Below are positions 50,774 through 59,467 of a stretch of DNA of 64,000 bases, piece after piece. The stretch comes from Candidatus Nanoarchaeia archaeon (GTDB taxonomy: Archaea; Nanobdellota; Nanobdellia; Woesearchaeales; JANQNE01). Under the pieces are notes generated by a model. It was not told where the DNA came from. It did not search any database and saw nothing but the letters and a program-made list of their open reading frames with translations. Positions within the stretch are counted from its first letter, which is position 1; every line of letters starts with the position of its first letter. Made by a program: the position numbers and the translations under genes. The stretch is taken from the NCBI GenBank assembly GCA_028279725.1, contig JANQNE010000002.1, forward strand, positions 1 to 64,000. Reading direction: 5' to 3'.

Positions 50774-50965
50774 TCACTTGGATTCTTCAATCTTTATGCA
50801 CTGGACAGGGCATGTGTCAGCAGCAGCCTGGTTACAGCCGACTTCTTCTAACTCTGTCTTTTTTGGCTTTGATTTTCCGTCGTCAGCCATCTCCCAGTTG
50901 TCGCAGGCAGCAGTGCAGGCACCGCAGCCGATGCATTTTTCCCTTTCATGTATTATCTTTATCAT
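50774..50965 (-). CDS. Ferredoxin (single [4Fe-4S]-type)
   Basis: CIGCGACTAACDNWEMADDGK...GCNQAAADTCPVQCI. Confidence 0.9.
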   Translation of the reverse strand: MIKIIHEREKCIGCGACTAACDNWEMADDGKSKPKKTELEEVGCNQAAADTCPVQCIKIEESK

Positions 50966-51792
50966 CGTTGCACCTCTTTCTCAAGAATAAGCTGGAATTC
51001 TGAGATTTGTTTTGTCTTTGTTCCTTGTTTGATTGTTAGCGGATAAAAGGCCTTTACACCTACAGTCGTGTTTCCTATCGTAATGTCTGATATGAAGTCT
51101 CCTGCTTCTATGGTGTAGTCCTGTGTGTTAAATGCTTTGAAGTTGTTGATGCAACTGTGTATGTTTATGTCTATGTAGGATTCCATGTCAGCTTTGCTTA
51201 GATATCCTTGCTTTAATCTTTGTTCTGCAGTTATCTTTAGGCAGCTTTCTACGAACTTGGAAACTTCTGTGTATTCTGTTCCTGAGGATGCTGTTTCTGC
51301 CAATATAGGAGTTATTGAGTATGATGCTAAGATTGTTGATATCATAAATGTGAATGTGTATACTAAAGCTAAGAACATAGGAGCAAAGAAAAGCCCTACG
51401 AGATGATGCTTGTGCCTTTCATGCTCATAGAAGTATATGAGGAAAGGTATGTTGAAGCAGACAAAGTAGATTATGCTTGTGTATATCGAGCTTAATGTTG
51501 TGAGTTTACCGATCTGGTCTGCTATGACTAAAAATACAGAGATGCCAATGACTGTCGGCAAAGGGATTATAGTTCCTGCTAAAACTTCTTTTTTCTCTTT
51601 ATGTGTTATCTTTTCTATGAATCTTGCTGACAGATGGCCGAACAGGTATGCGATTATCGCTGTTATGAAATAGTTTGCCATGTTTGGAGCTGACACATAG
51701 AAGAGCACTAATGGAGTTGAAAGTATGAATACTGAGACCATCAGCAGTATAAGCATTATGAAATACATTCCATGCTGTGATCTTTCTTCCAT
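50962..51792 (-). CDS. Hypothetical multi-TM membrane protein
   Basis: Several hydrophobic helices; start at MEERSQHGMYFIM with AGAGG SD rather than 51816. Confidence 0.7.
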   Translation of the reverse strand: MEERSQHGMYFIMLILLMVSVFILSTPLVLFYVSAPNMANYFITAIIAYLFGHLSARFIEKITHKEKKEVLAGTIIPLPTVIGISVFLVIADQIGKLTTLSSIYTSIIYFVCFNIPFLIYFYEHERHKHHLVGLFFAPMFLALVYTFTFMISTILASYSITPILAETASSGTEYTEVSKFVESCLKITAEQRLKQGYLSKADMESYIDINIHSCINNFKAFNTQDYTIEAGDFISDITIGNTTVGVKAFYPLTIKQGTKTKQISEFQLILEKEVQR

Positions 51793-51812
51793 CTTATTTT
51801 GCCTCTTTTTTT

Positions 51813-51902
51813 GCATAACACGCTTCGTTTGCTTCTTTTTTGATGTGTCTCAGATTTATTTGTTTTCTGATGTTTTTTCTTTGACTTCGCTTGGTGTTAT
51901 GC
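51813..51902. repeat. Repeat element copy 1 with terminal inverted repeats
   Basis: GCATAACAC...GTGTTATGC; aligned along its length with 59126-59209. Confidence 0.8.
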
Positions 51903-54507
51903 TTTTCCTACTTCTTATCAATTTGTCTAATTCTCCATAGATCAGGACTGATGATGCTACCAATACTGCATAAAGCCATTCAATGCCTGATAAGGCAGTT
52001 GTGCCGAAAGTTTTTGACAGTACAGGGATGTATATGACTGCGAACTGAAGTGCTATTGAGATCGCCATAGCTATGATAAGCTTCATGTTTGAGAATACAC
52101 CTATCTTGAACAGCGATGTGTTTTCTGAACGGCAGTTGAGGACATTGAACATCTGGAACATCATCAATGTTGTAAATGCCATTGTCTGAGCTTTTATGAG
52201 ATTGTTAGTTGGATCGTATAGTCTGAAGACGATCAGTGTTCCAACCATCATTATGATTCCTATGAAGATCATCCTTCTTATTATGAATCTTGATAATATC
52301 CTTTCTTCTTTTTTTCTTGGCTTTCTGTTCATTATGTTAGGATCAGCAGGGTCAACTCCTAATGCGAGAGCTGGAAGGCCGTCTGTGAGAAGATTTATCC
52401 AAAGGATCTGGATAGCTACTAATGGAAGGGGCATGCCTAAGATTATAGCTACAAATACTGTGAGAACTTCTCCTAAGTTGCTTGATAAAAGATATTCAAC
52501 GAATTTTTTTATGTTGTCGTAGATGCCTCTGCCTTCTTCTACAGCGTTTACTATAGAAGTGAAATTATCATCTGTAAGTATCATCTCAGACGCTTCTTTT
52601 GCAACATCTGTTCCTGAGATCCCCATCGAAATTCCGATGTCTGCTTTTTTTAGAGCTGGAGCATCGTTAACTCCATCTCCTGTCATAGCAACAACATATC
52701 CTTTTCTTTTCAGAGCTTCAACAATCTGTAATTTATGTTTTGGATCGACTCTTGCGTATATAGAGATATTATCTATGTGTTCATCAAGATGTTCTATGGA
52801 CTCTAGCTCGTGGCCGTCTATCGCTCTTCCTTCTAGTCCAAGCTCTTTTCCTATAGCTTCAGCTGTCTTCTTGTAGTCTCCTGTGATCATGATGACTTTA
52901 ATACCAGCACTGCTGCATTTTGCTATGGATTCTTTAGCTTCTTCTCTTGGCGGATCTATCATAGCCTGAAGCCCTACAAAGATAAGGTCTTTTTCTTCAA
53001 GCTTATCGCTCTGCTTGTATGCAAAGCCGAGAACTCTTAGTGCTTCTGAAGCAAAGTTTTCGTTTGTCTCTAATATCTTTTTCTTGTCTTCTCTTGTTAT
53101 CCTTCTTACATGCCCATCTTCTAGGATCCTGTCGCATAGCTCCAGGATTATGTCAGGAGCTCCTTTTGTGAATATTGTCTTTTTACCTTCTATAGAATGC
53201 TGTGTTGACATACGTTTTCTTTCTGATGAGAACTGTATCTCTCCTAATCTTGGGGAATCATGTGTTAGAAGCTCTGATTTAAGGTTAGCTTTTGCTGCGC
53301 TTACAATTAAAGCAGCTTCAGTAGGATCTCCTATGACATTTTCTTCAGAAAGCTTTGCATCGTTGCACATCGCTCCGATCTTTAGCAATAGGTTAAAGTT
53401 TTTTGTGTCGATGATCTTGTCTTTATATGAGAAGACTCCTTCTGACTTGTAGCCGCTGCCAGTTATGTCTATTATTTTGTTGTTGACAAAGAGTTTTTTT
53501 ACTGTCATCTCATTGTGAGTTAATGTTCCTGTCTTATCTGTGCAGATGACTGTTGTTGATCCTAATGTTTCTACACTGGGAAGCTTTCTTATCAGAGCAT
53601 GACGCTTGACCATACGCTGTACTCCTAAAGCTAAGCTGATGGTTACTACAGCAGGAAGCCCTTCTGGGATAGCTGCAACTGCTAATGAGATCGCTGCTAT
53701 GAACATCTCTCCTGCTTCTTTTCCGAACAGGATCCCTGCAAGGAAAACAACTACACAAACAACTATTGCAGCTCCTCCAAGAAGTTCCCCTAATTTTTTC
53801 AGCTTATGCTGGAGCGGGGTCATCTGAGGCTTTTCTTTCTGGATCATCTCTGCTATCTTTCCTATCTCTGAGTTCATTCCTGTCCTTACTGCTACAGCTT
53901 TAGCTCTTCCGTTTGTAACTATAGTTGATGAGAAGACCATGTTTTTCTGTTCAGCTATGTTTGTTTTGTCTGTTATGTCAAGATTTTTTTCAACTGGAGT
54001 TGATTCTCCTGTAAGAGCAGCTTCCTGGGTCTGTAAGTTTACTGATTCAATAAGCCTCGAATCTGCCGGGATCTTTTCTCCTGTTTCCAGCAGGAGAATG
54101 TCTCCTGGAACTATCTCTTTTGCATCAATCTTGATCTCTTTTCCATCTCTTATGACAGCAGCTTTTAATGAAGCCATCTTCTTTAATGCTTCAATCGCTT
54201 TTTCAGCTTTGAATTCCTGTATGAATCCTAAGATCGAGTTTAGGATAAGGATAATTCCTATGACTAAAGCGTCTAATCTTTCTCCTAAAAGTAATGAGAT
54301 TATTACTGCTGCCAGAAGTATCCCTACTATGAAGCTTTTGAACTGGTCGAAGAATATCTTTACTGGAGAAACTTTGGCTTTCTTCTTAATCTCATTAGGG
54401 CCATATCTTGCAAATCTTGATACAGCTTCAGCTCTTGTGAGGCCTTCTTTTGTTGTGTTAAGCTCTTTCAATACATCTTTGATCTTTGAGGATTGGTATT
54501 GCATCAT
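51856..54507 (-). CDS. P-type cation (Ca2+-type) ATPase
   Basis: TVICTDKTGTLTHNEMTV, GDGVNDAPALKKADIGI, TGESTPVEK, PEGLPAVVTISLALG. Confidence 0.95.
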   Translation of the reverse strand: MMQYQSSKIKDVLKELNTTKEGLTRAEAVSRFARYGPNEIKKKAKVSPVKIFFDQFKSFIVGILLAAVIISLLLGERLDALVIGIILILNSILGFIQEFKAEKAIEALKKMASLKAAVIRDGKEIKIDAKEIVPGDILLLETGEKIPADSRLIESVNLQTQEAALTGESTPVEKNLDITDKTNIAEQKNMVFSSTIVTNGRAKAVAVRTGMNSEIGKIAEMIQKEKPQMTPLQHKLKKLGELLGGAAIVVCVVVFLAGILFGKEAGEMFIAAISLAVAAIPEGLPAVVTISLALGVQRMVKRHALIRKLPSVETLGSTTVICTDKTGTLTHNEMTVKKLFVNNKIIDITGSGYKSEGVFSYKDKIIDTKNFNLLLKIGAMCNDAKLSEENVIGDPTEAALIVSAAKANLKSELLTHDSPRLGEIQFSSERKRMSTQHSIEGKKTIFTKGAPDIILELCDRILEDGHVRRITREDKKKILETNENFASEALRVLGFAYKQSDKLEEKDLIFVGLQAMIDPPREEAKESIAKCSSAGIKVIMITGDYKKTAEAIGKELGLEGRAIDGHELESIEHLDEHIDNISIYARVDPKHKLQIVEALKRKGYVVAMTGDGVNDAPALKKADIGISMGISGTDVAKEASEMILTDDNFTSIVNAVEEGRGIYDNIKKFVEYLLSSNLGEVLTVFVAIILGMPLPLVAIQILWINLLTDGLPALALGVDPADPNIMNRKPRKKEERILSRFIIRRMIFIGIIMMVGTLIVFRLYDPTNNLIKAQTMAFTTLMMFQMFNVLNCRSENTSLFKIGVFSNMKLIIAMAISIALQFAVIYIPVLSKTFGTTALSGIEWLYAVLVASSVLIYGELDKLIRSRKSITPSEVKEKTSENK

Positions 54508-56938: not shown

Positions 56939-58342
56939 ATGGCGGAAATCAAGATATGCGGGATAACAAACCAAAAAGATGGCAAAGAAGCTGTTGAATT
57001 GGGAGCGGATTATATCGGATTTGTTTTCTATGATAAAAGTCCAAGGAATATAACTCCAAGGATGGCTAAGAAGATAGGCAGAAGCCTTATAGGTGTTAAG
57101 AAAGTTGGCCTGTTTGTCAATGAAGATCCTAAAAAGGTGAATAATATAGCTGATCTTGTAGGCCTTGATGTTATACAGTTCCATGGGGATGAAAGCCCTG
57201 AATACTGCAGACAGTTTAATGGAAGGGAAGTATGGAAGGCGATAAGAGTTAAGGATGAAGGAAGCATCTCAGAGATAGCCAGATTTAAGACAGTGGATGC
57301 TGTTGTGTTGGATAAGTATGTTGATGGAAAGATGGGAGGAACTGGAGAGAGCTTTGACTGGGATCTTGCTGAAAAAGCTAAGGGCCTTGATAAGCAGATA
57401 GTTCTTGCAGGGGGATTAAATCCTGCTAATGTTGCTGATGCTATACTTAAAGTTAATCCTCTTGTAGTTGATGTAAGTTCAGGTGTTGAAGAGGCGAAAG
57501 GAAAGAAATCATATGAGAAGATGAAGAAGTTTATCGATACTGCGAGAACTCCTTCTGTGTTATTGAAGATTGTCGGAAGCAAGAGAAATGAGGTGGACCT
57601 TCTGTATAATACCGGAAAAGCTGAGGCATATTCTAAGAATGCTATGCCAAGAGATAAGAGAATGAAAAGCTTTTATGATGCAGTTTCTAAGAGGCATAAT
57701 AGGTATGTGCCGAATCTTATCGCTGAGTTCAAGCAGGCATCTCCTTCAAAGGGAGATATAAGATCAGGGGCAACTCCTGAACAGATCGCTAAGATATATT
57801 CTAAGTATGGTGCTAGCGCTATATCTGTTCTTACTGACCAGCCTTTTTTCAAAGGAGATATCGAGTACATACCAAGGATAAAAAAGGTTACAAATCTTCC
57901 TGTGCTTAGGAAGGATTTTATAATAGATGAAGCCCAGATATATGAAGCAAGATGCCATGGAGCAGATGCGATACTTCTGATAGCAGCGATACTTGAGACT
58001 ACACAGATGAAGGATTATATGGCTTTGGCAGAAAGTCTTGGTATGGACTGTTTGGTTGAATCACATAATAAGTATGAGTTAGATAAATCGATGGAAGCTG
58101 GGGCAAAGATATTGGGAATAAATAACAGGAATCTTCATAATTCTAAGGTTGATCTTAAAACGACAGCTGATCTTCTGTATTATATACCTGAGGACAGGGT
58201 TGTTGTTACAGAAAGCGGAATACATACTTATGAAGATGTTAGTAGGATGGCTCCTTTGAGAGTTAAGTCTATGTTAGTGGGAGAATCTTTGATGAAAGAG
58301 AGGAATATTCCTGCGAAGATGAAAGAGTTGCTGGGGAAATGA
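56939..58342 (+). CDS. trpF-trpC: Phosphoribosylanthranilate isomerase-indole-3-glycerol phosphate synthase fusion
   Basis: TrpF: KICGITNQKDGKEAVELGADYIGFVF; TrpC: LIAEFKQASPSKGDI, VLTDQPFFKGDIEYI, ILGINNRNLHNSKVDL. Confidence 0.93.
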   Translation: MAEIKICGITNQKDGKEAVELGADYIGFVFYDKSPRNITPRMAKKIGRSLIGVKKVGLFVNEDPKKVNNIADLVGLDVIQFHGDESPEYCRQFNGREVWKAIRVKDEGSISEIARFKTVDAVVLDKYVDGKMGGTGESFDWDLAEKAKGLDKQIVLAGGLNPANVADAILKVNPLVVDVSSGVEEAKGKKSYEKMKKFIDTARTPSVLLKIVGSKRNEVDLLYNTGKAEAYSKNAMPRDKRMKSFYDAVSKRHNRYVPNLIAEFKQASPSKGDIRSGATPEQIAKIYSKYGASAISVLTDQPFFKGDIEYIPRIKKVTNLPVLRKDFIIDEAQIYEARCHGADAILLIAAILETTQMKDYMALAESLGMDCLVESHNKYELDKSMEAGAKILGINNRNLHNSKVDLKTTADLLYYIPEDRVVVTESGIHTYEDVSRMAPLRVKSMLVGESLMKERNIPAKMKELLGK

Positions 58343-59130
58343 AAACAGCTATAGTTGTTTCTGTGAAAGACAAAGCTGGGATGAATATCAAAGAAAGGCT
58401 GCTTGAGCTTTTTGATTTTAGTGAGAAGAATGGAGTTTATTCTTTTGGAGATCTAAGTTTGTATACTGTTGAGAAAGATACTATTGTCTGTGAGCATATT
58501 GATAAAGAGATAGATGCAGATGTTTTTATCTTTGCGACAAGACATCAAGGAAATGGCGGGCTGAGCTTGAGTGTGCACACTCCTGGAAACTGGGCTAGAG
58601 CTGAGTATGGAGGAGAAGATAGAAAGCTTTGTGTTTGTTGGGCTAATCTTAACAGGAAGATATATCTTGATCTTTTGGAGAAAGCCGGGGATATTGATGT
58701 TACGTTAGAATGTACTCATCATGGTCCGCTTATTGATAAGCCTACAGTTTATGTTGAGATAGGAAGCAGCGAGAATGAATGGGAGAATAAAGAGGCTGCT
58801 GAAATAATTGCAAAGACTATAGTTGATGTTATGGTCGATGATATTCCAAATAATGGAGTTGTTTTTGGGATAGGCGGGCCTCATTATTGTAATAATTTTA
58901 ATAAACTTTTGAGGAGGACAGAGTTTGCTGTCGGCCATGTTTGCCCAAAACATATGCTTGAGAAACTGGATAAAGAGATGATTAAAGAGGCTATAGCTAA
59001 GACTAAGGAAGGGGTTGAATTTGTTTTGCTTGATTGGAAAGGTTTAGGTGGAGAAAAACAGAGGATCATGGGGATTCTTGATGAGCTGGGTGTTGCTTAT
59101 AAGAGAACAGATCAGCTGGATAAAGCATAG
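58339..59130 (+). CDS. dtdA: D-aminoacyl-tRNA deacylase (DtdA/GEK1)
   Basis: ATRHQGNGGLSLSVHTPGNW, ECTHHGPLIDKPTVYVEIGSSENEW, GIGGPHYCNNF. Confidence 0.93.
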   Translation: MKTAIVVSVKDKAGMNIKERLLELFDFSEKNGVYSFGDLSLYTVEKDTIVCEHIDKEIDADVFIFATRHQGNGGLSLSVHTPGNWARAEYGGEDRKLCVCWANLNRKIYLDLLEKAGDIDVTLECTHHGPLIDKPTVYVEIGSSENEWENKEAAEIIAKTIVDVMVDDIPNNGVVFGIGGPHYCNNFNKLLRRTEFAVGHVCPKHMLEKLDKEMIKEAIAKTKEGVEFVLLDWKGLGGEKQRIMGILDELGVAYKRTDQLDKA

Positions 59131-59209
59131 CACGCTTCGTTATTTTTTTGATATGTTTCAGATTCCAGTGTTTTTTGATGTTTATCTGAGAACTACGCTT
59201 GGTGCTATG
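59126..59209. repeat. Repeat element copy 2 with terminal inverted repeats
   Basis: CATAGCAC...GTGCTATG; shares CACGCTTCGTT, TTTTTTGATRTGTYTCAGATT, CGCTTGGTG with 51813-51902. Confidence 0.8.
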
Positions 59210-59266
59210 GGATAAAGGGTAAAGTTTTTAAACAGAGTAAGTATTGGTTGTTCTAGAGGTGATAAT

Positions 59267-59467
59267 ATGTGCCTATGCGACAAATGTTCTAAACTTGTAG
59301 CATTCTTTGTGCTAGCATTAGGAGTTTTGTTCTTACTGCAAGATCTTAATGTATGGAACTTTTGGGGAATCAGCTGGTATTCAGCTATATTGATCTTAGC
59401 TGGACTGACAGGATTCTGTTCAAGCTGCTGCCCAGAATGCCAGGTTGCCACAAAGAAAAAGAAATAA
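59267..59467 (+). CDS. Small two-TM protein (LiaI/LiaF-like TM region)
   Basis: LVAFFVLALGVLFLLQDLNVWNFWGISWYSAILILAGLTGF. Confidence 0.65.
   Translation: MCLCDKCSKLVAFFVLALGVLFLLQDLNVWNFWGISWYSAILILAGLTGFCSSCCPECQVATKKKK

Follow-up and report, generated by a model that had tools for sequence, protein, structure and literature searches.

About 40 copies of a palindromic element of about 90 bp are dispersed in the genome of Candidatus Nanoarchaeia archaeon (1.42 Mb; hereafter the home genome), two of them within the window, as the whole stretch of 64,000 nucleotides analysed here is called. Copies form a family that extends into related genomes, keep their ends paired, can be flanked by target-site duplications or nested within one another, and lie mostly on the promoter side of genes. 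This is most probably a non-autonomous, MITE-like element that is mobilised in trans, held to a hairpin and promoter-proximal. It lacks coding capacity and has terminal inverted repeats and target-site duplications, as expected of a MITE, and we class it as a new MITE variant of DPANN archaea, which is palindromic, conserved in shape and situated on the promoter side of genes. Archaeal MITEs have received little study, those reviewed being from Sulfolobus, haloarchaea and a few others (PMC10969869). The literature searched, with most subscription journals and preprints outside its coverage, yielded no description of this element family and no MITE described for Woesearchaeota, Nanoarchaeota or other DPANN archaea.

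Both window copies are located where the first-pass annotation had placed them (51813-51902 and 59125/59126-59209/59210; Table 1). It was also right that the two loci can be aligned across the element and are unrelated beyond its limits, and that one base pair of the terminal repeats has changed on both sides (CATAACAC/GTGTTATG versus CATAGCAC/GTGCTATG). In both copies the minus strand carries the GNA/GNA loop motif described below. Copy 1 indeed lies inside the 3′ end of the ATPase gene, as it holds the stop codon and codes for the last ~14 residues, which come after the Cation_ATPase_C domain has ended at residue 864 of 883. The start codon of the gene next downstream is probably at 51798, 15 bp from copy 1. 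The stop codon of the deacylase gene (TAG, 59128-59130) is supplied by copy 2, and minus the element the 3′ end of this gene would read ...GAT AAA GGG TAA. The TATA-like box outside copy 2 apparently serves a gene starting at 59267.

Table 1. Copies of the element in the 64-kb window and the features adjoining them.
Feature	Position	Strand	Remark
Element copy 1, 90 bp	51813..51902	minus	model match, E=5.4e-18
Arms of copy 1	51813-51821 and 51894-51902		
Element copy 2, 84 bp between duplications	59126..59209	minus	covariance-model match spans 59125-59210
P-type cation ATPase gene	51856..54507	minus	
Gene next downstream of ATPase	50962..51798	minus	without Pfam family
D-aminoacyl-tRNA deacylase gene	58339..59130	plus	PF04414
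Left target duplication of copy 2, 8 bp	59118..59125		GGATAAAG
Right target duplication of copy 2, 8 bp	59210..59217		GGATAAAG
TATA-like box	59224..59233	plus	GTTTTTAAAC, 15 bp outside copy 2

The original description as a two-copy element holds for the window only and not for the genome. A BLAST search with copy 2 recovered about 20 full or partial copies from the home genome, and the covariance-model scan that had been proposed as a check gave 39 matches there (E < 1e-4) and dozens in relatives; the outcome named as speaking against the element, no further copies and no conserved pairing in relatives, was not what was found. Among 60 relatives, the first covariance model, built from 19 copies, had 50 matches in the genome G007 and two in G060. 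With a broader model the element was found in 27 of the 359 genomes of the order that were searched (the home genome and 26 others), at up to about 60 copies per carrier genome, and its distribution among genomes is patchy. Matches in 380 genomes drawn from the phylum were confined to the same order. A pattern scan of public genomes returned the Nanoarchaeota MAG RS_12_14 ZL285.bin.14 (which is G007), one contig of Woesearchaeota and another, GC-rich one that had been binned as Actinobacteria. Plasmid and phage collections contained no match. The Actinobacteria-binned contig (VAXY01000204.1, L135:2874-2965) carries a GC-rich version related to the hairpin core, which has one additional inner hairpin and is enclosed by the inverted repeat TAGTGCCCCT...AGGGGCACTA; this contig is misbinned unless the element extends to bacteria. 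Positions of copies are mostly unshared between genomes, with only two junctions carrying the element in both the home genome and G007. Three contigs of G007 (C9, C25 and C34) have a copy within 20 bases of their start, which would be expected if the repeat broke the assembly. A solo right half, GACTACGCTTGGTGCTATGC, with no left half (L016, C7:110506-110522 of the home genome) is probably a truncated copy.

Copies vary little in length, most having 90-95 bp. The arms of the terminal inverted repeats comprise 9 bp (14 or more in G007), and before any filtering on the ends they match at 8 or 9 of 9 positions in nearly every full copy. In the first 19 copies, a set which like the covariance models favours paired copies, the 9-bp stem is 98% paired, seven of its nine pairs have changed on both sides, and none of 500 shuffles reached the pairing or covariation score. 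These values strongly support the earlier suggestion of selection on a stem. A second, inner helix covaries likewise (35 diverse copies). The layout, as read from 204 copies, consists from the outside of the 9-bp stem, two GC/GC pairs beside a one-sided 3-nt bulge, a loop and a helix of two pairs, which occurs as GT/AC, GC/GC, AC/GT or AT/AT. The loop has TNC/TNC on one strand, being GNA/GNA on the other, and 14 copies exhibit the variant TC/TC (GA/GA on the complementary strand). The pattern fits 142 copies, of which 128 have the N on both sides and 14 on neither, with no mixed copy. Because this nucleotide is never found on one side only, the sequences suggest that the loop probably forms sheared G.A pairs on the purine strand. 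The stem is free in sequence, with 92 different left arms in 204 copies. A coding element was considered because of an open frame in the interior of copy 2 and was rejected, as indels disrupt any common frame and the copies conserve none. In two copies of the home genome (L104:1501-1644 on C8 and L105:1501-1651 on C1) the loop holds, at an identical position, a ~55-nt insert of another kind, the double hairpin CACTCAGAA...TTCTGGTGTCC...AGAAACT...AGTTTCT...AGGATA, which may be another small mobile element.

If the copies acted as RNA, G.U pairs would be tolerated on the transcribed strand; A.C on one strand is G.T on the other. At stem positions 3-9, 1311 of 1358 pairs are Watson-Crick, 11 are G.T, 18 A.C and 18 other, a count that omits copies with fewer than seven Watson-Crick pairs and, as the models also favour paired copies, is biased in its absolute pairing rate and less so in the comparison of mismatch types. 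There is no excess of wobbles on either strand, G.T or A.C being no commoner than other mismatches, and copies occur in either orientation to flanking tandem genes (16:12 in the home genome, 15:9 in G007 and G060). Both observations favour a constraint that acts at the level of DNA, on a DNA hairpin and not on an RNA family. A structured RNA family, the copies of which would be transcribed, fold into the conserved hairpin and act as RNA gene or mRNA element, is therefore an improbable explanation. It would fit with the two covarying helices, with GNA/GNA in the loop, as is usual for sheared G.A pairs, with the fixed length of the element and with A.C mismatches, which are G.U when read on the minus strand, outnumbering G.T by 11 to 2 in G007. 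However, this bias is reversed in the home genome (10 to 5), and nested copies, target duplications and mixed orientation are difficult to reconcile with an RNA. Rfam 15 gave no match on the elements at gathering score either, and the undescribed 3′-end RNA family that the first-pass annotation had offered as one option is not supported. Complementary arms could also be expected if the element were an ordinary decaying MITE with an unselected hairpin, whose arms are corrected by repair (template-switch correction of quasi-palindromes). Such a process would leave exclusively Watson-Crick pairing with very few intermediates, as seen. Yet two features are left unexplained, the persistence of TNC/TNC or TC/TC in the loop of an element with drifting arms and the covariation of a short inner helix located past non-complementary bases, and we consider this explanation unlikely.

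Evidence for mobility is clearest in G007, where copies end in TATGTGCATAGC...GCTATGCACATA. Direct repeats of 8 bp or more flank 16 of 46 copies of this genome, compared to about 0.6 in shuffled pairings, elements are nested within elements, and inverted pairs occur about 10 bp apart. In the home genome few target duplications survive, the exact 8-bp GGATAAAG at copy 2 being an example, and copies are 0.76 identical to their nearest neighbour versus 0.92 in G007; the copies of the home genome are the older ones. Hairpins of the genome G316 are often paired within units bounded by GGCTCTGTCCCGAAT, and at L238 a 9-bp duplication can be read directly. Single hairpins are found in G319 within units ending in GGCTCTGTAGAAA, and some hairpins of G343 and G341, which belong to one genus, within AAGTCAAGTTG-type ends. 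G343 also has a decayed IS240-like element with two ORFs, which is bounded by similar AAGTCAAGTTG-type ends. From G007, G316, G319 and G343/G341 it follows that the same core occurs inside units with unrelated ends. The MITE-like, non-autonomous nature proposed at the outset is supported by target-site duplications, nesting and dispersal, and in one genus by outer ends in common with an IS6-like element. G316 also contains a separate large MITE family (loci L228-L257) with GGCTCTGTAGAAAA ends and no hairpin core, which exhibits 9-bp duplications (e.g., ATTGGTCTC at L230) and alongside which no transposase was found.

Neither a transposase of the tested families nor a longer element sharing the ends of the copies was found in the home genome and G007, and ends in common with an autonomous element are limited to one genus. 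Right ends without partner are about as numerous in the home genome as in a reversed-pattern control, and unpaired ends in G007 belong to units that are truncated or composite and lack a recurring ORF alongside. The Y1 (RAYT) transposase PF01797 had no match in six genomes, with control genomes being positive. An origin from IS256/Mutator was dismissed, as PF00872 gave only two weak matches, both to IS240-like proteins. The IS240-like domain PF13610 is encoded in four of 16 carrier genomes and one of 14 non-carriers tested, and is absent from the home genome, G007, G316 and G319; with these frequencies an IS240-like enzyme cannot yet be regarded as the general partner. An intact zinc-ribbon IS6/IS240-like transposase of 302 aa is present in G341 (L264:1015-1920), and in G343 one is split by a stop (L267:1459-2265). 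The ends of IS240-like elements match those of hairpin units in G343 only; the IS240-like genes of G241 were rejected as partner, their ends being unlike the hairpin units of this genome. The ends GGCTCTGT of G316 and G319 resemble IS6 ends. ORFs beside GGCTCTGT ends in G316 were likewise rejected, as they include no Pfam transposase and are mutually unrelated.

Most copies are intergenic, between the end of one gene and the promoter of the next, whose start codon is often about 50 bp from the element. On one side or both, a TATA-like box is located within one and the same 6-bp window for 36 of 44 G007 copies and for 28 of 40 copies of the home genome, proportions which are somewhat flattered as the best window was picked from the data, and control windows 30 bp further out contained 2 and 7, respectively. 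We infer a similar TATA offset in G316 when the unit's outer boundary is taken as reference. In G007 the stop codon upstream is at varying distances of roughly 1-43 bp, and the promoter of the neighbouring gene thus looks like the anchor, more so than the 3′ end. An immobile operator or insulator of a regulon upstream of promoters would account for this TATA spacing and for the frequent distance of about 50 bp to the start codon. Such a regulatory element is nevertheless very unlikely, considering that both orientations occur, that only two junctions are common to the home genome and G007, that copies are nested and flanked by target duplications, and that promoterless copies exist between convergent genes (e.g., L097:15299). 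As ~94% of the 64-kb window is coding, survival of copies only in safe gaps could yield part of the observed placement, beside a possible targeting of insertion to promoters.

For the preferred MITE-like element, spread would be brought about by a transposase acting in trans and producing target duplications of 8-9 bp, plausibly an IS6/IS240-like enzyme in the related genomes. The element would insert, or survive, in the space separating a gene's end from the following core promoter, upstream of TATA and at an almost constant distance from it. Selection would keep the hairpin with its free 9-bp outer stem, 3-nt bulge, two GC pairs, GNA/GNA (GA/GA) loop and short second helix. As the pairing is DNA-like and the element mobile, it is most likely used as a DNA hairpin or cruciform in transposition or replication. 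Against the MITE reading stands that the old, apparently immobile copies pair more strongly than a plain MITE needs, that few of those in the home genome retain duplications, and that a partner transposase or longer element was not found. More speculatively, the hairpin core could be a module recognised by shape, namely a single-stranded DNA hairpin with sheared G.A pairs that is read by a transposition or replication enzyme, inserts with constant spacing to archaeal promoter complexes and has been acquired by several unrelated sets of IS ends. If true, this would constitute a promoter-targeted, structure-reading MITE system in DPANN archaea. A mobile element that keeps its shape and not its sequence, placed at a set distance from TATA boxes, raises the questions whether transposons of archaea are able to target the transcription machinery like yeast Ty3, and whether DNA hairpins are read structurally outside IS200 and integron systems.

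Prokaryotic MITEs are likewise short and geneless, with terminal inverted repeats, target duplications and many dispersed intergenic copies (PMC10969869). In contrast to them, the element has a free stem sequence with conserved pairing, an internal hairpin core that recurs within units of unrelated outer ends, and a set distance from TATA. Duplications of 8 bp, as at the element, are known from the IS6 family, the review of which mentions only two IS6 MITEs, of 227 and 336 bp (PMC7986276). The outer ends shared with the IS240-like element of G343 also point to the IS6/IS26 family, whereas the 9-bp duplication in G316 and the four genomes lacking PF13610 differ from it. REP/BIME palindromes with RAYT are similarly dispersed and extragenic, with inverted pairs (PMC3733652, PMC2817692), and complementary stem changes were described in these much shorter palindromes (PMC3733652). 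They comprise 20-40 bp, unlike the element with its about 90 bp and ~70-nt interior. An invariant GTAG or CGTC tag like that of REP/RAYT was not present in the element alignments. Integron attC sites are imperfect hairpins near gene 3′ ends in which shape is conserved over sequence. They were discarded as a match, since the copies are dispersed in both orientations instead of forming a co-oriented array and no R-box consensus was seen. Rickettsia palindromic elements (mentioned in PMC10969869) differ in that nearly all copies of the present element are intergenic and their reading frame is unconserved; they are comparable in that such repeats can join coding sequence, as copy 1 does at the C-terminus of the ATPase.
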